From positions 1-49,349 of the forward strand of contig DASVAW010000050.1 in the NCBI GenBank assembly GCA_036376135.1: a DNA stretch of 49,349 nt. Reading direction: 5' to 3'. The translations under genes were made by a program, and so were the position numbers. Below the pieces are notes generated by a model. It was not told the origin of the DNA and did no database searches. It worked only from the letters and a program-made list of their open reading frames with translations. The stretch comes from Candidatus Polarisedimenticolaceae bacterium (GTDB lineage Bacteria > Acidobacteriota > Polarisedimenticolia > Polarisedimenticolales > DASRJG01). Positions 25,024-44,989 of this stretch are shown one piece after another (positions within the stretch are counted from its first letter, which is position 1; each line of letters begins with the position of its first letter).

Positions 25024-25960
25024 CCGGCTCGTCCGGCGGGCGGCGCAGCGCGGCGAGGAGCTCGCGGAAGTCCCGTGGCGGCTCCGACTGGAAGACGAGC
25101 GACTTCCCCGAAGGGCTCGCGAAGCCGAGCCGATACGCATGAAGCGCCACCCGCGCGATCCGCGGGGAAGGACGGCCGTAGGCGACGTCCCCGACGAGCG
25201 GGTGCCCCACCGCCGCGAACTGCACGCGGATCTGGTTGCGCCGGCCGGTCTCCAGGCGCACTTCGACGAGCGTGGCGTCCGTGAATCGTTCGAGGACGCG
25301 ATACGTGCAGGCGGCGTCGCGTCCCTCGGCCCCTTCGGGAACCGTGTGCACCTTCAGGCTCTTCGGGTTCTCCGCAAGCCGGTGCTCGAGGCGCCCGCGG
25401 TCCTTGTCGAGCCGCCCCTCGACCACCGCAAGATAGACGCGCTCGGGGCGCCCGCGGGCGAACTCCGAGCGGAGCGCGGCACGGGCGGCCCCGTGACGGG
25501 CGAAGGCGACGAGCCCCGAGGTGTAGCGATCGATCCGGTGCACCGCCTCGAGCGAGATTCCCTTCAAGCCACGCTTGCGGTAGTGGTGCTCGAGCCGCTC
25601 GAGCAGGGAGATGCCCTTGTCCGTGGGGGCCGGAACCGTGAGAACGCCCGGGGCTTTCTCCACGACGGCCACGTCGTCGTCCTCGTGGACCACGCGGAAC
25701 CCCGGTCCCTTGAGCGCGGCGGCGCGAGGGGCCTTGTAGCGACGCGCCGGGTCCCACGACGCTTCGACGACGTCCCCCGGAGACAGCCGGTGGTCGGCGC
25801 GGGTCGTCGTGGTCCCGTTCACGCGGGCGAGCCCCGAGGCGACGATCCCCTTGGCGTCGGCGTGGCTCAGCCCCGCCGCGTCGTGCAACGCCTTCGCGAC
25901 GGTCAGCCCCTTCGCATCCGGGGGGCAGAGGAACCGCAGGCGTCGTTCGGATGCGCTCAC
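24986..25960 (-). CDS. RluA-family pseudouridine synthase
   Basis: RNA-modifying enzyme of 324 residues that converts uridine to pseudouridine in rRNA or tRNA. An N-terminal S4 RNA-binding domain (SHADAKGIVASGLARVNG, then LSPGDVVE) precedes the catalytic domain, with the catalytic Asp in AVHRIDRYTSGLVAFA and the later RLETGRRNQIRVQFAAVGHPLVG. The C-terminal tail is unusually Arg- and Pro-rich. The target site is not readable from sequence. GTG 25960 overlaps the stop of the upstream antiporter gene as GTGA, an odd operon partner. The 3' end overlaps the FIST gene by 38 bases. Confidence 0.93.
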   Translation of the reverse strand: MSASERRLRFLCPPDAKGLTVAKALHDAAGLSHADAKGIVASGLARVNGTTTTRADHRLSPGDVVEASWDPARRYKAPRAAALKGPGFRVVHEDDDVAVVEKAPGVLTVPAPTDKGISLLERLEHHYRKRGLKGISLEAVHRIDRYTSGLVAFARHGAARAALRSEFARGRPERVYLAVVEGRLDKDRGRLEHRLAENPKSLKVHTVPEGAEGRDAACTYRVLERFTDATLVEVRLETGRRNQIRVQFAAVGHPLVGDVAYGRPSPRIARVALHAYRLGFASPSGKSLVFQSEPPRDFRELLAALRRPPDEPVRPRRAPARRYR

Positions 25961-27357
25961 GAGAAGAACACCCAGGTCGCGATCGCGAAGATCGGGATCA
26001 GGATCGGAAGGGTCCAGCGGAGGATGTAACCGAAGAACGAGGGCATCTCCACGCCCGACTCCTCGGCGATCGACTTCACCATGAAGTTCGGCGCGTTGCC
26101 GATGTACGTGTTCGCCCCCATGAAGACCGCCCCCGCGGAGACCGCCTCGAGCCCGTAGGGATGCTCCAGCACGAGGCGGGCGATCGCCTGGGCCTCAGGA
26201 ACTCCGGGGTAGATGCGCCCGATCTCCAGCGTGAGGAACGCGAGGTAGGTCGGTGCGTTGTCGAGGAACGACGACAACGTCCCCGTCGCCCAGAAGTAGT
26301 GTGCCGGCGTCTCGACGAGCTTCAGGAGGGCTCCGAGCGGACCCGATTCCCCCGCCCGAAGGATCGCGAGGGCCGGGATGATCGTCGTGAAGATCCCCAG
26401 GAAGAGGATCGCGACCTCGCGCATGGGTTCCCATGTGAACCCGTTCGCCTCGCGCAGCTCCTTTCGCGTCGTCCGGAGCGACGCCACGGCCATCGCGAGA
26501 ATGACGGCGTCGCGAACGAGTCCCGACACCGACAGGTGCACGCCGAGGACGTCCAACTCCCCGGCATCCCAGATCCCCGACAGCAGGACCGCGCCGACGA
26601 TCCCCGCGAGGAAGACGAGGTTGTGCAGGCCGTCGACGCGGAAACGGGCGTGGGCCGCCGACTCCTCGATCGGGACCTGCGCGATCCCCCCTTCGCGCCG
26701 CTCCTTGCGGTACAGGAGGAGGTCGACGACGAGGAACGCGGCGAGGGTCAGCCCCCCCACGAAGGCGAACAGCGGGGTCATGAACAATGTCCAGAAGAAC
26801 GGCACGCCGCGCAGGAACCCCAGGAATAACGGAGGGTCGCCGAGGGGGGTGAGACAACCGCCGATGTTCGACACGAGGAAGATGAAGAAGACGACCACGT
26901 GGACCTTGTGGCGCCGTACCTCGTTGGCCCGCAGCAACGGCCGGATCAGGAGCATCGACGCGCCGGTGGTGCCGATCCACGAGGCGAGCAGGGCGCCGAA
27001 GGCGAGGTAGGCCGTGTTGAAGGCCGGGGTCCCGGCGAATCGTCCCCGGACCACGATCCCGCCGGCCACGGTGTACAGGCCGAAGAGGATCAGGACGAAC
27101 GGCAGGTAGTCCGCCAGCAGGATGTGCAGGATCTCGTACCCCGCACGGCCGCGATAGGCGACCACGAAGGGAACCGCGAGGAGCAATCCCCAACCGATGG
27201 CGATCTTCGGGTAGTGGTGGTGCCAGAACCGGGGGAACAGCAGCGGCCCGAGCGCGATCGAAAGGAGCATGCCGACGAATGGGATGGCGCTCCAAATCGG
27301 CAGAATCTGTCCGAGCTCGACACCGGAACCGCCCGCGGCAGCCAGGACGGACGACAT
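25957..27357 (-). CDS. ArsB/NhaD-superfamily ion transporter (sodium:proton antiporter type)
   Basis: Ion transporter superfamily permease of 466 residues with about twelve helices. Typical half-helix loop motifs are FLVSNIGGCLTPLGDPPLFLG in the first half and LSSFLDNAPTYLAF followed by GANTYIGNAPNFMVK in the second; SNIGG/GDPP and DNAPT/GNAPN are the paired signatures of NhaD-type sodium/proton antiporters. It probably exports Na+ in exchange for H+. ATG 27357 is preferred to GTG 27363 since AGGAG lies five bases before it. The AT-rich stretch 27366-27405 upstream should hold its promoter. Confidence 0.88.
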   Translation of the reverse strand: MSSVLAAAGGSGVELGQILPIWSAIPFVGMLLSIALGPLLFPRFWHHHYPKIAIGWGLLLAVPFVVAYRGRAGYEILHILLADYLPFVLILFGLYTVAGGIVVRGRFAGTPAFNTAYLAFGALLASWIGTTGASMLLIRPLLRANEVRRHKVHVVVFFIFLVSNIGGCLTPLGDPPLFLGFLRGVPFFWTLFMTPLFAFVGGLTLAAFLVVDLLLYRKERREGGIAQVPIEESAAHARFRVDGLHNLVFLAGIVGAVLLSGIWDAGELDVLGVHLSVSGLVRDAVILAMAVASLRTTRKELREANGFTWEPMREVAILFLGIFTTIIPALAILRAGESGPLGALLKLVETPAHYFWATGTLSSFLDNAPTYLAFLTLEIGRIYPGVPEAQAIARLVLEHPYGLEAVSAGAVFMGANTYIGNAPNFMVKSIAEESGVEMPSFFGYILRWTLPILIPIFAIATWVFFS

Positions 27358-27404
27358 GCGCACTCCTAGTTTTTAATTCCTAAATTCAATGACGAATTGC
27401 GATA

Positions 27405-27433
27405 TTGCGGATCACCCCCCGGCACCGTACTCT
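27405..27433 (+). promoter_or_regulatory. Promoter of the RiPP-like peptide gene
   Basis: TTGCGG (27405-27410), a spacer of exactly 17 bases and TACTCT (27428-27433). This gives a leader of about 45 bases ending in GGAGG seven bases before ATG 27485. It lies at the edge of the AT-rich patch 27366-27405, which contrasts with the GC-rich surroundings and also faces the divergent antiporter gene. Confidence 0.62.
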
Positions 27434-27484
27434 ACATCGCAGTTGCAGGACGGGGTCGAAGCCGAACCCGACGGAGGTCTCGCG

Positions 27485-27655
27485 ATGCCGACGAAACGTG
27501 CCTACGAAAAACCCCAGATGACCGCGTATGCGGTGAAGGACATCGTCGAGCAGATCGGGCCCGCCCAGGCCGCCGGCGCCAGCGGAACCGTCGACACGAA
27601 GCCGTTCAGCGAGTCCACCCTGACCGGACGCTCCGGCTCAAACTTCCGGCGCTAG
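27485..27655 (+). CDS. Small RiPP-like precursor peptide (lasso-type leader pattern), orphan
   Basis: Peptide of 56 residues, coding supported by strong G/C preference at third codon positions, a good promoter and a GGAGG ribosome site seven bases before the ATG. The N-terminal part reads RAYEKPQMTAYAVKDIVEQ, with the YxxPxΦ pattern by which lasso and related leaders are recognised by RRE proteins. IGPAQAAG then separates it from a Gly/Ser/Thr-rich, basic tail ending SNFRR. If cleavage were before the G of GASGTVD, an Asp would stand at position 7. No cyclase, protease, RRE or exporter gene is nearby, so maturation is speculative. The last 18 bases overlap the convergent ClC gene. A longer frame from ATG 27389 lacks a ribosome site. 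Confidence 0.7.
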   Translation: MPTKRAYEKPQMTAYAVKDIVEQIGPAQAAGASGTVDTKPFSESTLTGRSGSNFRR

Positions 27656-29692
27656 CCGGTCGAGGGCCGCAGCCGGGCCGAGAAGCACCACCGCATCCGT
27701 TTCTTCCAGCCGCAGGTCGGGGGGCGCAGGGGAGATCTCCTTCGGTCCGTCGGCCGTTTCCTTGCGGATCGCCAACACGAAGACGCCGTGGCGCCCGTAC
27801 GGGTCGGCCTGCTGCAGGGTCTGACCGAGCCACCCCTCCGGCGGGCGGATCTCGCGGATCGTCAGGTCTCCCGAGCGACGACTCCCGACCTCGGGAGACG
27901 GGACGCGCGCCCCGAGGTACTGCGCGAGGACCATGCGCCGTCGCAGGACCTCGCGATCGAGGGCCTGCACGACGTCCCGGCGGGCCACCGTGCCGACGAG
28001 CTGATCGGGGTCGTCGGTCGCGACGACCGGCAGTTGCGCCAGCTCGAGCTGCGAGAAGCGCCGGAGCACCTCGTCGAGCGGGGTCCGAGGCGTGACGCGC
28101 GCCACGTCCCGGACGAGATCGGAGGCGACGAGACTCTCCCGTAACGCCGCTTCCCCGGCGACCTGGAAGGCGTCCCGCAGGTCGATCGCGCCGACGAGCC
28201 GCCCGTCGATCCCGAGGACGTAGATTGCGGTCTGGCGGCTTTGCGAGAAGCGGTCGAGGACCTCGCGCAGCCTCGCATCGACCCGCACGGTGAGCGGGTC
28301 GGTCCGGACGAGATCCTCCGCGCGCAGCGACGCGATCGCCATCTGCTCGAAGGCCACGTCGAAATCGACCCCGCGTCGACGGAGCGCTTCCGTGTAGATC
28401 GAGTCCCTGCGCAGCTGCCGCGCGACCCAGGTCGCGGTCGTGGTGACGAGCGCCAGCGGCATCACCGCCCCGTAGTTCTGGCACATCTCGAAGACGATGA
28501 TCAGCGCGGTGATCGGCGCGAAGGTCGTCGCGGCGATCGCCGCGCTCATGCCCCCCAGCGCCCAGAAGACCGGGGAGACGGCAAGCCCCGGGAAGAGGGC
28601 GTCGATCCCGAGTCCGTACAACGCCCCGCTCGCCGCTCCGACCAGCAACGCCGGGGTGAAGACGCCCCCGGAGCCCCCCGATCCCAGCGACACGGCGGTC
28701 GCGATGATCTTGGCGAGCGCGAGCGGCAGGAGGACCTTGGCCGCGATGCTCCCGCTGAGGACCTCCCGCACCCCGTCGTAGCCGTTCCCCCAGACCTCGG
28801 GGATCCAGGCCGCGACGAGCCCGACGATCGCCCCGCCGAGGGCCATGCGCGCCCAGATCGGGAGTCTGAGCTTCGCAAACGTCTTCTCGGAGGCCTCGAT
28901 CGCGCCCCGCAAGACGAGTCCCGCCCAGGCGACGAGCGCGCCGAGCAGGGCGAACAGCGGGAGGGAGAGGAGCGTCGGCGCGTGCTCGGCGGGGACGGGG
29001 TAGAGCGGCCCCGACCCGAAGAACCCCCACGAGACCATCGTCGAGGTGACCGCCGCGAGGACGACGGGCCCGAAGATCTCGAGGGCGAAGTTCCCGTGCA
29101 CCACCTCCATGACGAACATGGCCGCGCCGATCGGCGCGTTGTAGGCGGCGGCCATCCCGGCGGCGACGCCGCACCCGATCAGCACGCGCCTCCGCTCGAC
29201 GGGGACCTGCAGGGCCGACCCCAGCCGCGATGCGGCCGATGCGGCGATCTGGACGATCGGCCCCTCGCGGCCCACCGAGCCCCCGGTGGCGTTGAGCAGC
29301 ACCGATCCGAACGACGCCTTCAGCGACCGCGCGAGGTCCAGGCGCGCGGTCCCCTTCAGCGAGACCGCTTCCATGATCTCGGAGGTCCCCTCGCCGCCGC
29401 CGGCCTTCCCGCGGCGCAGGTACCAGGCGAGCAGCCCCGCGGCGAGGCCCCCCGCGGCGGGGGCGAGCACGATCATCGGAAGGCCCAGCCCGCGCGCGAC
29501 GGCGAGCGGCTCGTCGGCGCTCGAGAACGCCAAGGACTGGATCGCGAGTCCGCCCGAGCGCACGGCGAGCGCCGCGAGGGCACCGAGCCCCCCGGCCGCG
29601 ACGACGAGCGCGACCGACCAGCCCCGCTCGTCGGTGCGGAAACGTCTCCGCGTCCACAGGAGCGGCCGCAGGAGGTCGCGAGGACGGATCAC
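27638..29692 (-). CDS. ClC chloride channel/antiporter with CBS pair and RCK_C domain
   Basis: Membrane protein of 684 residues. The ClC core (about 20-440) has GSVGREGPIVQIA, which includes the gating Glu of GREGP, and GSGGVFTPALL. The first filter motif, normally GSGIP or GHGVP, reads GEGTSEIMEAV, so the Pro is lost. Two CBS domains (about 460-590) follow, for nucleotide sensing, and then an RCK_C/TrkA_C-like tail with REIRPPEGW and LEETDAVVLLG. It conducts or exchanges Cl- (or a similar anion) under ligand control. GTG 29692 overlaps the LOG stop as GTGA. Last gene of the operon beginning at 35722. Confidence 0.93.
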   Translation of the reverse strand: MIRPRDLLRPLLWTRRRFRTDERGWSVALVVAAGGLGALAALAVRSGGLAIQSLAFSSADEPLAVARGLGLPMIVLAPAAGGLAAGLLAWYLRRGKAGGGEGTSEIMEAVSLKGTARLDLARSLKASFGSVLLNATGGSVGREGPIVQIAASAASRLGSALQVPVERRRVLIGCGVAAGMAAAYNAPIGAAMFVMEVVHGNFALEIFGPVVLAAVTSTMVSWGFFGSGPLYPVPAEHAPTLLSLPLFALLGALVAWAGLVLRGAIEASEKTFAKLRLPIWARMALGGAIVGLVAAWIPEVWGNGYDGVREVLSGSIAAKVLLPLALAKIIATAVSLGSGGSGGVFTPALLVGAASGALYGLGIDALFPGLAVSPVFWALGGMSAAIAATTFAPITALIIVFEMCQNYGAVMPLALVTTTATWVARQLRRDSIYTEALRRRGVDFDVAFEQMAIASLRAEDLVRTDPLTVRVDARLREVLDRFSQSRQTAIYVLGIDGRLVGAIDLRDAFQVAGEAALRESLVASDLVRDVARVTPRTPLDEVLRRFSQLELAQLPVVATDDPDQLVGTVARRDVVQALDREVLRRRMVLAQYLGARVPSPEVGSRRSGDLTIREIRPPEGWLGQTLQQADPYGRHGVFVLAIRKETADGPKEISPAPPDLRLEETDAVVLLGPAAALDRLAPEV

Positions 29693-39651: not shown

Positions 39652-40644
39652 GTGCCCCTCGTCGACGGCTTCGGACGCGTCCACGACGATCTTCGCGTGT
39701 CGGTAACCGACCGCTGCAACCTCCGCTGCGCCTACTGCATGCCGGAGGAGCCGGAGTGGTTCCCGCGGGAGGAGATCCTCCGCTACGAGGAAGCGGCCCG
39801 GCTGGTCCGCGTGGCCGCGGAGCAGGGGATTCGCAAAGTCCGTGTGACCGGAGGGGAGCCCCTCGTGCGACGCGACGTCGACGTCTTCGTCGCCGCCGTC
39901 GCGGCGATCCCGGGGATCGACGACCTCTCGCTGACCACGAACGGCGTGCTCCTGGAGAAGTTCGCCCCGCGGCTCGCCGCGGCGGGACTCCGGCGCGTCA
40001 ACGTGAGCCTCGACTCCCTGAGGCGCGATCGCTTCGCGAGGCTGACGGGGCGCGACCGGCTCGCCGACGTGCTGCGCGGCCTCGAGGCCGCCGCCGCGGC
40101 CGGCCTCGGCCCGGTCAAGATCAACGCGGTGCTCCTGCGAGGGATCAACGACGACGAGGCGATCGATCTCGTCGCGTTCGGAAGGGAGCGCGGCTACGAG
40201 GTGCGCTTCATCGAGTTCATGCCCCTGGACAACGACCGCACGTGGGACCTCTCCCGGGTCGTGAGCGGGGCCTCGGTCCGGCGCGCGCTCCACGCGCGCT
40301 GGCCTCTCGTTCCCGACCCCGACCGCGATCGGCGCGCTCCCGCGACGCGGTTCCTCTTCGCGGACGGCGGGGGCGCCGTCGGGTTCATCAACTCGGTGAC
40401 CGAGCCGTTCTGCGCCGACTGCGGGCGCCTCCGCCTCACCTCCGACGGGAAGCTCCGCGTCTGCCTCTACGACGACCGCGAGGACGACCTCAAGGCGGCG
40501 ATGCGCGCCGGCGCGACCGACGCCGACCTCGTCGCGCGGATGCAGGCGGCCGTGTCGCGGAAGGGGCGCGGCGGCGCGGTGGACATCCTCGAGCGCCGGG
40601 AGGCGCTGCCGCTGCGCCGCACGATGCACCAGATCGGCGGTTAG
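39652..40644 (+). CDS. moaA: GTP 3',8-cyclase (MoaA), molybdenum cofactor synthesis
   Basis: Radical SAM enzyme of 330 residues that turns GTP into 3',8-cyclo-GTP, the first step of molybdopterin synthesis. The SAM cluster motif is SVTDRCNLRCAYCMPEE (CX3CX2C), with RVTGGEPLVRRD after it. The second C-terminal cluster is FCADCGRLRLTSDGKLRVCL (CX2CX13C). The protein ends in a diglycine (MHQIGG), which is required for activity in known MoaA. GTG 39652 follows the TATAAT box. Other mo-cofactor genes are not nearby. The stop overlaps the LON-domain gene by four bases. Confidence 0.96.
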   Translation: MPLVDGFGRVHDDLRVSVTDRCNLRCAYCMPEEPEWFPREEILRYEEAARLVRVAAEQGIRKVRVTGGEPLVRRDVDVFVAAVAAIPGIDDLSLTTNGVLLEKFAPRLAAAGLRRVNVSLDSLRRDRFARLTGRDRLADVLRGLEAAAAAGLGPVKINAVLLRGINDDEAIDLVAFGRERGYEVRFIEFMPLDNDRTWDLSRVVSGASVRRALHARWPLVPDPDRDRRAPATRFLFADGGGAVGFINSVTEPFCADCGRLRLTSDGKLRVCLYDDREDDLKAAMRAGATDADLVARMQAAVSRKGRGGAVDILERREALPLRRTMHQIGG

Positions 40645-41452: not shown

Positions 41453-44400
41453 ATGATCCGTCGCCTGGCCGCCGCCGCCGCGCTCCTCGTCTGCTCGCTC
41501 CCGCTCGTCCACGCCGAACCGGCGATGTCCCGCGAGCGGCTCCTGCTCCGGGTCATGGCCGTCGACCCCGAGCGGATGCTCCCGGACCTGTACCGCCTCG
41601 ATCTCGACTTCGCCGGGTTCGACTCGAAGTCGAAGGCGGTCGACGTGATCGGCGACACCGCCACGATCGGCTTCCTGCGCAACCTCGGGTTCGAGGTCGA
41701 GGTCGTCCGCGACGTCTCGACGACGTCGGATTCGTTCGAGGCCCTGTCGGACTACCTGAGCCCGGCCGAGGTCGCGCAGCGGATCGACCAGTACGTGGCC
41801 GCGTACCCCGCGCTCGCGAAGAAGGAGGCCTACGCCACGACCGTCGAGGGGCGGACGGTGTGGGCGGTGAAGATCTCCGACAACGTGGCCGTGGACGAGG
41901 ACGAGCCTGCGGTGCTCGTCGTCGCGCAGCACCACGCCCGCGAGGTGATGACCCCCGAGATCGCGATGGACGCCGTGGACTACCTGCTGACGCGCTACGC
42001 CACCGACCCGCAGGTCAAGGCGTGGGTCGACGCGACCGAGATCTGGATCCTTCCCAACCACAACCCCGACGGCACGAACCACGTCTTCACCGCGGACAGC
42101 AATTGGCGCAAGAACCGGCGGAACAACGGCGGGGGGGTCTTCGGCGTCGACCAGAACCGGAACTACCCCTTCCAGTGGAACGCCTGCGGCGGCTCGTCGG
42201 GGGATGCGTCGAGCGACACCTACCGTGGTCCGTCCCCCGCCTCGGAGCCCGAGACCGCGCAGGGGATCCTCGAGCTCGCACGGCGGGAGCGGCCGGTGAT
42301 GGCGCTGTCGTATCACACCTACTCCGAGCTCGTGCTGATGCCGTACGGGTGCACCGGGTCGCACACCCCCGAGCGCGAGACGTTCCGGCGCATCGCGTCG
42401 GAGGTCGCCACGCGCCTGGTCGGCGACACCGGCACGAGCTGGTACCAGCCGGGATCGCCCTGGGAGATCCTCTACGCCGTCGACGGCGCCTCCGACGACT
42501 GGTTCTACGGCGAGCTCGGCACCTACAGCATGACGATCGAGGCGAACACCTCGACGCAGGGCTTCCAGCCGGACTACGCGACCTGGCGCAACGGCACCGT
42601 CGAGCGCAACCGCCCGGGGTGGCAGTACCTCCTCGATCGGATCGGCGGCTCCTCGGTTCGCGGCCACGTGACGAACGCCTGCACGGGCGCCCCGCTTTCG
42701 GCGACCGTCGCCCTGGACGAGGTCGTGTACTCCAACGGCGAGACGACGCGCACCGCGACCCCGCAACACGGCCGCTACCAGTTCCTGACGACGCCCGGGA
42801 CGTTCACCTTGCGCGCCGCCCTGTCCGGGTATCGGGGGCAGGCCTGGCCGACCGAGGTCGGCTCGAAACCGTTCGACCGCGAGATCCGGCTCGTCCCGAC
42901 CGGATCGCGGGGGCTCGCCGTGCGCGCCGTCCGGGTCGCCGACGCCGCGGGAGACGACGACGCCCAGGCCGATCCGGGCGAGGCGACCTCGATCGGCGTG
43001 ACGCTGCTCGCGACCGGCGAGACCCTCACCGGCGTGACGGCGACCCTCTCGACCACCGACCCGTGGGTGACCGTGACCCAGGCCAACGCCGCGTACGGCA
43101 CCCTCGCCCCCGCGGCCGAGGCGGAAGGGCTCTTCTCGATCCAGGTGTCGCCCGACGCCCCCGACGGCCACGTCGCGACCCTGACCGTCACCTTCGGCGC
43201 GAACGAGGCGCTGTGCACCGCCTCCGAGACGGCGGCGCTGCGCGTCACGCGCGGCTACCCGAGTTGTCCCTTCACGGTGGAGACCCTCGACGCCAACCCC
43301 GGCTGGACGATCGCCAACGCCGGGACCGGGGGCTGGCAGTTCGGCGTGCCGTCGGTCGTCGGCCCGACGGGCGGCCGCACGGGCAACAACGTCTACGGCA
43401 CGAACCTCTCGGGGAACTACGGCGGCAACGGCGACTTCCGCCTGACGACGACGCCCTTCGACCTGCGCGGCCTCCGCGGCTCGGAGCTTCGTTTCTGGCG
43501 CTGGCTCAAGAACGAGCCCGGATACGACCTCGCCACCGTCGAAGCCTCGGTCGACGGCGGGGGGACGTGGACGGAGATCTGGAAGGGGTTCCACTGGGGC
43601 GAGGGGTGGCAGGAGGAGCGCGTCGACCTCTCCGCGTTCGCCGACCAGGCCGACGACGTGCGATTCCGCTTCAAGCTCACCTCGGACACCGGGACCGAGC
43701 AGCCCGGGTTCTACGTCGACGACGTCGGCGTGTGCGGGGAGGCCGTCCCCTCGGCGGCCGGGAAGCTCTCCTATCTCGCCCACGCGGCCGCGGAGATCGG
43801 ACCGACCGGCTCCAACGGCAACGGCACGATCGACGGCGGCGAAACCGCCGTCGTGTCCCTGCAGATCCGCTCGAACCGCGACGTCGTCTCCACGGGGGTG
43901 GAGGCGTTCCTGAGCACGAACGAGCCCGGCGTGACGATCCGCAACGGATGGGCCGGGTTCGCCGACGTCCCCGCGGGAGGATCGGGGGACAGCCTCGCCC
44001 CGCACTTCACCGTCACCTTCGACGGCACGACCTGCCGGAAGACGGTTCCCTTCACCCTCGACCTGCGCTGGGACGGCGGCCGCTCGGTGAGCACCTTCTC
44101 GATCCCGATCGGCTCCGACCGCACCGTCGTGATCCTCGCCGACGACTTCGAGTCCGACCTGGGCTGGACGACCGGCGGGAACGCGACGCTCGGCTACTGG
44201 GTGCGGGAGGATCCGAACGGGGTGACGGCGGGCGGGCTGCCGGTCCAGCCGGAAGACGATACGACGCCCTCCCCCGGCGTGCGCGCGTGGGTGACCGGGA
44301 ATCCGCGCACCAACGGGAATTTCAACCCGTCCTCCGGCGACGTCGACGGCGGGACCGCCTGGCTCCAGTCCCCGATCTTCGACGGCGCCTTCGCGACGCG

Positions 44401-44989
44401 GCTCCAGCTCGACCTGAAGCGCTGGTTCACGCGCAAGAACCCCGGACAGTTCGACAGCTCGACCTTCCAGCTGCGCGTCTCGAGCGACGGCGGGACGACC
44501 TGGCGCGATCTCGAGACGCTCACGGGCGACGCGGCGGCGTGGAACCCGGTCGCCCTCGACCTCGTCAACTTCGGCGCTCCCTCCGACCAGATGCGCCTCC
44601 GGGTCGAGGTGACCGAATCGACGATCGCCGGGGACACGCTCCTCGAGGGACTGATCGACGACGTCCGCGTCGAGCGGACCCGTCGCGAGTGCGATCCGTA
44701 CACCCCCGCCGCGGCGCAGGCGCCCAACGGCGTCGGCGATACCGTGCTCGCGTCGATCGACGGCGACCACCTGCGCCTCGAGTGGCAGGCGCCCCCGGTC
44801 GATGGCGCGCACTCCGCGGCGACGGGGTATCGCGTCTACCGCTCGGCGAGCCCTTCGGGCGGATTCGCGGTCGCGGCCTCGCCGACGGCGCCGGTCGCGG
44901 TGCTCGCGGACGAGCGCATCACCCCGGGGAGTGCGTTCTATCTCGTCGCGGCGGAGAACAACGGGGGGGTGTCGGCGGACGCGCCGTAG
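41453..44989 (+). CDS. Secreted M14 zinc carboxypeptidase with large modular C-terminus
   Basis: Exported metallopeptidase of 1178 residues. A signal peptide (IRRLAAAAALLVCSLPLVHA) precedes a short pro-region and the M14 domain (about 110-410): zinc ligands H and E in QHHAREVMTPE near residue 160 and H in ALSYHTYSEL, substrate residues in RKNRRNN and NRNYPFQW, and the catalytic Glu in TIEANTSTQG near 362. Then come a carboxypeptidase-regulatory-like domain (RGHVTNACTGAPLSATVALD), beta-sandwich modules including two MAM-like domains (about 600-760 and 900-1080), and a fibronectin-III-like end. It cleaves C-terminal residues outside the cell; the modules probably bind substrates or surfaces. 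The start at ATG 41453 matches the signal peptide and the ribosome site. Confidence 0.93.
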   Translation: MIRRLAAAAALLVCSLPLVHAEPAMSRERLLLRVMAVDPERMLPDLYRLDLDFAGFDSKSKAVDVIGDTATIGFLRNLGFEVEVVRDVSTTSDSFEALSDYLSPAEVAQRIDQYVAAYPALAKKEAYATTVEGRTVWAVKISDNVAVDEDEPAVLVVAQHHAREVMTPEIAMDAVDYLLTRYATDPQVKAWVDATEIWILPNHNPDGTNHVFTADSNWRKNRRNNGGGVFGVDQNRNYPFQWNACGGSSGDASSDTYRGPSPASEPETAQGILELARRERPVMALSYHTYSELVLMPYGCTGSHTPERETFRRIASEVATRLVGDTGTSWYQPGSPWEILYAVDGASDDWFYGELGTYSMTIEANTSTQGFQPDYATWRNGTVERNRPGWQYLLDRIGGSSVRGHVTNACTGAPLSATVALDEVVYSNGETTRTATPQHGRYQFLTTPGTFTLRAALSGYRGQAWPTEVGSKPFDREIRLVPTGSRGLAVRAVRVADAAGDDDAQADPGEATSIGVTLLATGETLTGVTATLSTTDPWVTVTQANAAYGTLAPAAEAEGLFSIQVSPDAPDGHVATLTVTFGANEALCTASETAALRVTRGYPSCPFTVETLDANPGWTIANAGTGGWQFGVPSVVGPTGGRTGNNVYGTNLSGNYGGNGDFRLTTTPFDLRGLRGSELRFWRWLKNEPGYDLATVEASVDGGGTWTEIWKGFHWGEGWQEERVDLSAFADQADDVRFRFKLTSDTGTEQPGFYVDDVGVCGEAVPSAAGKLSYLAHAAAEIGPTGSNGNGTIDGGETAVVSLQIRSNRDVVSTGVEAFLSTNEPGVTIRNGWAGFADVPAGGSGDSLAPHFTVTFDGTTCRKTVPFTLDLRWDGGRSVSTFSIPIGSDRTVVILADDFESDLGWTTGGNATLGYWVREDPNGVTAGGLPVQPEDDTTPSPGVRAWVTGNPRTNGNFNPSSGDVDGGTAWLQSPIFDGAFATRLQLDLKRWFTRKNPGQFDSSTFQLRVSSDGGTTWRDLETLTGDAAAWNPVALDLVNFGAPSDQMRLRVEVTESTIAGDTLLEGLIDDVRVERTRRECDPYTPAAAQAPNGVGDTVLASIDGDHLRLEWQAPPVDGAHSAATGYRVYRSASPSGGFAVAASPTAPVAVLADERITPGSAFYLVAAENNGGVSADAP

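Follow-up and report, generated by a model that had tools for sequence, protein, structure and literature searches.

An orphan peptide gene of the Polarisedimenticolales belongs to an unnamed family of candidate RiPP precursors linked in relatives to PqqD and HprK-like genes

Linear polyphosphorylated peptides (LPPs) have been reported as restricted to Bacillota, where they are found in polysaccharide loci together with an SpI-like leader peptidase, a discrete RRE and an HprK-like kinase (PMC13381572). Their full leader motif reads YxxPxVLxHQxIxFETxxS; the YxxP part serves the RRE, and the phosphorylated Ser lies 18 residues past the motif Tyr (PMC13381572). Paeninodin-type lasso peptides, which have a discrete B1 protein, also combine a YxxP leader with a PqqD-type RRE (PMC13381572, PMC12710340). 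LPPs are the closest experimentally studied system to the peptide described herein, which is LPP-like in parts and fails the full leader motif.

The window is a stretch of 49,349 nucleotides from Candidatus Polarisedimenticolaceae bacterium (assembly GCA_036376135.1, contig DASVAW010000050.1). As originally predicted, it contains a real ORF of 56 residues at 27485-27655 on the forward strand (stop included), whose putative precursor product is MPTKRAYEKPQMTAYAVKDIVEQIGPAQAAGASGTVDTKPFSESTLTGRSGSNFRR. A Shine-Dalgarno-like GGAGG (27473-27477, +) ends 7 nt upstream of the ATG. On one side lies a divergent gene (25957-27363, -) for a CitMHS_2-family transporter, identified by its domain, whose place beside the peptide is conserved; on the other, the peptide gene shares 18 bases with a convergent ClC chloride channel gene containing CBS and TrkA_C domains (27638-29692, -). 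The peptide frame has a GC3 of 0.86 against 0.57 and 0.55 at codon positions 1 and 2, although this alone proves little because a reverse-strand frame over the same stretch has equal GC3. A codon-usage gene call also chose the peptide frame, but with a later start codon.

The GC content at 27360-27420 is 0.43 compared with 0.72 window-wide, and this AT-rich patch is the intergenic gap between the peptide gene and the divergent transporter gene. Such a gap is a natural place for promoters, and nothing more can be said of it. The hexamers TTGCGG (27405) and TACTCT (27428), separated by 17 nt on the forward strand, were re-measured as described, as were the GGAGG, the strong GC3, the AT-rich patch and the ClC overlap. 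The proposal that the peptide has its own promoter did not hold: each hexamer matches sigma-70 at only 3 of 6 positions, a weak match no better than chance, and a consensus scan reported no promoter at 27405-27433. An Rfam scan of the window gave no match. The statement that the window holds no modification or protease gene is literally untrue, since it encodes a radical SAM enzyme (MoaA, 39652-40644) and, 14 kb away from the peptide gene, a large zinc carboxypeptidase of the M14 type that includes an InhA-like MAM domain (41453-44989, +). A link to the peptide is apparent for neither, and MoaA was rejected as a maturase, being a conserved housekeeping neighbour near several loci of the order.

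Within the peptide, both YEKPQM and IGPAQA were found, and they belong to a family pattern, Y-x-x-P-x-[IVLM]-N12-G-P-A-x-[AGT], in which a conserved leader is followed by a variable tail. In the alignment of 30 members, the Tyr, the Pro and the GPA are nearly invariant, and in each of the 29 scorable members, the GPA-type Gly comes exactly 18 residues after the Tyr. Mean pairwise identity is 0.43 from the Tyr to GPAQ versus 0.20-0.23 in the tails (0.20 within the order). A conserved leader joined to a variable C-terminal core gives these peptides the look of RiPP precursors. The YEKPQM codons (27503-27520, +) encode the YxxPx[ILVM] motif, which its conservation, the adjacency of PqqD genes and the LPP precedent (PMC13381572) suggest to be the docking site for a PqqD-type RRE. 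The GPAQA codons (27557-27571, +) mark the invariant end of the leader, with small residues at -3 and -1, and are proposed from their fixed spacing to contain the cleavage site. The A-x-A of GPAxA resembles a signal peptidase I site. The remaining Gly/Ser/Thr/Arg-rich stretch, AGASGTVDTKPFSESTLTGRSGSNFRR (27572-27652, +), has the low identity of the other tails and is the putative core.

The tails vary by lineage. In the f5 genomes they close with R[LM][FY]PG[LMIF]R, next to radical SAM genes they contain two Cys, and in the order Ser-Gly often comes shortly after GPA (GPAQAAGASG, GPAQAFVSG, GPAMANISG). Some tails (those of G011 and G003b) are without Ser or Thr, so tail phosphorylation cannot be universal in the family.

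The peptide gave nothing significant against Pfam and NCBIfam models, which fits the original suggestion of an undescribed peptide family, and a literature search on GPAQ precursors and on PqqD with HprK found no paper. Searched on its own, the peptide sequence matches a paralogue on contig C88 of its own genome (E 4.6e-5) and sequences in 5 of 99 relatives at E values from 1e-4 to 2e-3. A seven-row profile built from the query, the paralogue and the five relatives recovers members outside the profile at E values down to 2e-9; four of its matches (L033, L035, L037, L038) were discarded because they were chance hits or had a disrupted frame. A four-row alignment used as a genome query returned four loci only. 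With the 30-row profile, 22 of the 41 genomes examined from its Acidobacteriota class match at E <= 0.01, one of them weakly (G040), leaving at least 21 of 41. All family counts are lower bounds, as a limited number of candidates was scored per genome. The E values of the later profiles are inflated because these profiles include sequences that they re-find, and the independent evidence of homology is therefore that of the single-sequence and seven-row searches. Homologues thus exist and retain the YxxPx[IVL] leader motif, and the ORF truly belongs to a RiPP-type precursor family that has no name as yet. This family also occurs elsewhere in Acidobacteriota and in records titled Deltaproteobacteria or Desulfobacteraceae, with taxonomy taken from record titles (G002, for instance, is an uncultured Acidobacteria by title).

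Up to four precursors are found per genome. The second one in the window's genome (G000:C88:31528-31692, -; L002/L010) has an Arg/Gly-rich tail ending in GRNRGRGRGRGRR and is also an orphan, located between NUDIX-like and cysteine-desulfurase-like genes as read by eye. One genome (G007) has four members on four contigs (L045, L047, L065, L066), which suggests that several precursors share one maturation set.

Gene neighbourhoods in relatives link the family to PqqD, HprK-like and PqqD/radical-SAM/SPASM genes. A same-strand gene for a PqqD-type RRE lies within 1.5 kb of 15 of the 30 copies, where PqqD numbers and genome sizes predict 0.06, and an HprK-like kinase gene lies within 2.5 kb of six. 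In the f5 genomes, PqqD and the peptide share a strand, with the PqqD gene some 115-270 bp upstream. Downstream of the peptide come genes for a PqqD-Radical_SAM-SPASM protein and an HprK-like kinase at L059, L061 and L063, for PqqD and the kinase at L042, and for the kinase, PqqD and an opposite-strand nucleotidyltransferase at L069. At L064 the peptide lies between PqqD and the kinase, with an SpI-like gene recognized by eye. Neighbouring genes come from automatic calls, and family models were applied to only part of them; PqqD, PqqD-Radical_SAM-SPASM and NTP_transf_5 were scored as domains, and HprK_rel_A fell below its cut-off. Reading by eye added a comparable cassette on a contig titled "bacterium" (L142) and a further PqqD-peptide pair in G097 (L036). 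A two-Cys member in a record titled Desulfobacteraceae (L143) has a fuller cassette, also read by eye, in the order peptide, gingipain-like (C25) peptidase, PqqD, HprK-like, signal-peptidase-like and PqqD-radical-SAM. Judged from the leader motif and the PqqD linkage in relatives, rather than from the window copy, the family is of the RiPP precursor type.

In the window's own order, the peptide gene occurs as an orphan, with the CitMHS_2 transporter, the ClC gene or both next to it. The transporter is its divergent neighbour in all four genomes of the order that have the transporter (G000, the window's genome, G002, G006 and G008), the ClC gene is its downstream neighbour in the window and in G002, and a kinase or RRE gene adjoins none of the order's copies. 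Seven order-level relatives have adjoining HprK-like kinase and PqqD genes elsewhere in the genome, beside an exopolysaccharide-type sugar-transferase gene; in one of the seven (G004), no peptide was detected. In the window's genome, an HprK-like kinase is found at the corresponding place, beside a polysaccharide-export-type gene (G000:C59:10000-29900, L120). This kinase aligns at 31% over 324 aa with the L069 kinase, which lies beside a family member.

The C59 locus is without the PqqD and sugar-transferase genes that flank the kinase in relatives, and neither Pfam nor a family-specific profile found a PqqD next to the kinase or elsewhere in this genome, whose assembly has an estimated completeness of 97.6%. 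The search for an RRE protein elsewhere in the genome that had been put forward as a check was therefore negative. This weakens the claim that the window copy is matured and is the main objection to a maturation model; the pathway of this genome may be incomplete, may use an unrecognized RRE or may have its RRE in an assembly gap. The original idea of maturation by enzymes encoded elsewhere is in keeping with the HprK-PqqD pairs that the order relatives carry elsewhere in their genomes. Two other candidates in this genome were set aside. Its sole SPASM protein (C19) was rejected as a maturase, as it adjoins a glycosyltransferase-like sequence and is unlinked, and its archaeal-type signal peptidase (C40) was not counted, as this is an order-wide locus with no RiPP gene seen beside it.

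The likeness to LPPs extends to a YxxP leader for a discrete RRE and a variable tail and, in part of the genomes, to an HprK-like kinase, an NTP transferase, a candidate SpI-like protease and polysaccharide loci; a macrolactam cyclase was not seen either. The kinase and a discrete RRE are clustered at L042, L064, L069 and, by eye, L143, whereas they are unlinked to the peptide in the window's order. SpI-like genes lie near family members at L143 and L064 (by eye), and a genome with an SpI-family match (G129) has it about 3 kb from HprK; the window's genome has only the unlinked one. The spacing is shared as well, with 18 residues from the Tyr to the modified Ser in LPPs and to the invariant Gly here; given that Gly, the modification site cannot be the LPP residue. 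The family further differs in that its leader is without VLxHQxIxFETxxS and ends in [IL]GPAx[AGT], in its occurrence outside Bacillota, namely in Acidobacteriota and in records titled Deltaproteobacteria, and in precursors that are often unlinked from enzymes, while some cassettes have a PqqD-radical-SAM-SPASM enzyme. The HPr-rel-A system (NCBIfam TIGR04352/TIGR04353) also unites an HprK-related kinase, a PqqD-family protein and a nucleotidyltransferase, but all kinases except one fall far below the TIGR04352 cut-off, and a pattern scan found no YxxP-type small ORF beside this sole true member (G005, L163). PqqD/radical SAM/SPASM cassettes such as those of sactipeptides, mycofactocin and SynChlorMet are comparable to L059, L061, L063 and probably L142, where the peptide tails carry two Cys; the window peptide, in contrast, is free of Cys and is not accompanied by an enzyme of this kind.

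Several other explanations of the ORF have to be weighed. A spurious frame carrying a chance motif might be suspected in a short ORF of a GC-rich genome with a weak promoter and a GC3 that is not unique to the frame, but the significant homologues across many genera, the fixed spacing and the conserved synteny have already refuted this in practice, and its probability is negligible. A lasso precursor whose B1/B2/C set is encoded elsewhere is hardly more credible. YxxP and PqqD-type RREs do serve lasso systems as well (PMC13381572, PMC12710340), paeninodin-type systems share the YxxP/WxxP leader and, in some cases, HprK and nucleotidyltransferase tailoring, and cleavage behind GPAQAA would yield a core beginning with GASGTVD, in which Asp7 is a possible ring-closing residue. 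However, Transglut_core3 (B2, PF13471) has no match in the window's genome and none above cut-off in the 12 family-bearing genomes tested; the leader is without the penultimate Thr; and the Asp of the window copy has no acidic counterpart in the C88 paralogue or in G002, a conserved acidic ring residue at core positions 7-9 being absent across the family. The Asn-synthetase-like cyclase family is too common to decide lasso identity alone. The only above-cut-off Transglut_core3 match adjoins PqqD in a genome of the window's own family that is without the peptide (G001:C2:243097-243694, L165), possibly a true lasso cluster. On present evidence, the peptide is not a lasso peptide; of the original proposal, the RiPP precursor with a YxxP-type leader stands, with the motif retained and PqqD beside half of the copies, and the lasso type does not.

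A former RiPP precursor whose maturation ceased when the lineage lost its RRE is the rival to be taken most seriously, though it is unlikely. PqqD is absent beside HprK exactly where relatives carry it, none was found elsewhere in the genome, and no maturation enzyme adjoins the window peptide. Yet two copies persist in this genome with leader motif, start and stop intact, and the orphan layout beside the transporter, ClC or both is common to relatives that have the HprK-PqqD pair elsewhere, so that the orphan state is not itself decay. The location of these pairs in exopolysaccharide-type loci, the transporter linkage in four of four genomes having the transporter and the failure to find an exporter linked to the peptide would also suit a peptide that stays in the cell as a regulator or adaptor and serves the HprK-like kinase as a substrate for tuning exopolysaccharide synthesis or transport, rather than being exported. 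Such a role is rather improbable, given that other members adjoin PqqD/radical-SAM/SPASM genes, a sign of peptide modification, and that the variable tails argue against a single conserved cellular target.

The favoured reading, held with moderate confidence from comparative sequence data, is that the ORF encodes a RiPP precursor of an as yet unnamed family, which would be matured by PqqD docking, a kinase and cleavage. The YxxPx[I/V/L/M] motif of the leader would dock on a small PqqD-type adaptor (RRE), and this would hand the peptide over to tailoring enzymes that differ by lineage: a kinase here, radical SAM elsewhere. The HprK-like kinase, the most likely tailoring enzyme in this branch, would phosphorylate Ser or Thr of the tail, acting in trans in the window's order. 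A small-residue-specific (signal-peptidase-I-like) protease would then cut at GPAxA and free the 27-residue tail. More tentatively, and as a possibility that falls short of being probable, the system could be a Gram-negative counterpart of LPPs, with scattered orphan precursors, one trans-acting HprK-PqqD pair in an exopolysaccharide locus and phosphorylated linear peptides cut at GPAxA.

These peptides represent a family of short precursors that no Pfam or NCBIfam model covers, from lineages mainly known through metagenome bins. They suggest that the logic of RRE and HprK-like kinase, reported as Bacillota-restricted for LPPs, reaches Gram-negative phyla. They also suggest that precursors may mature in trans, in which case gene-cluster mining would miss them.
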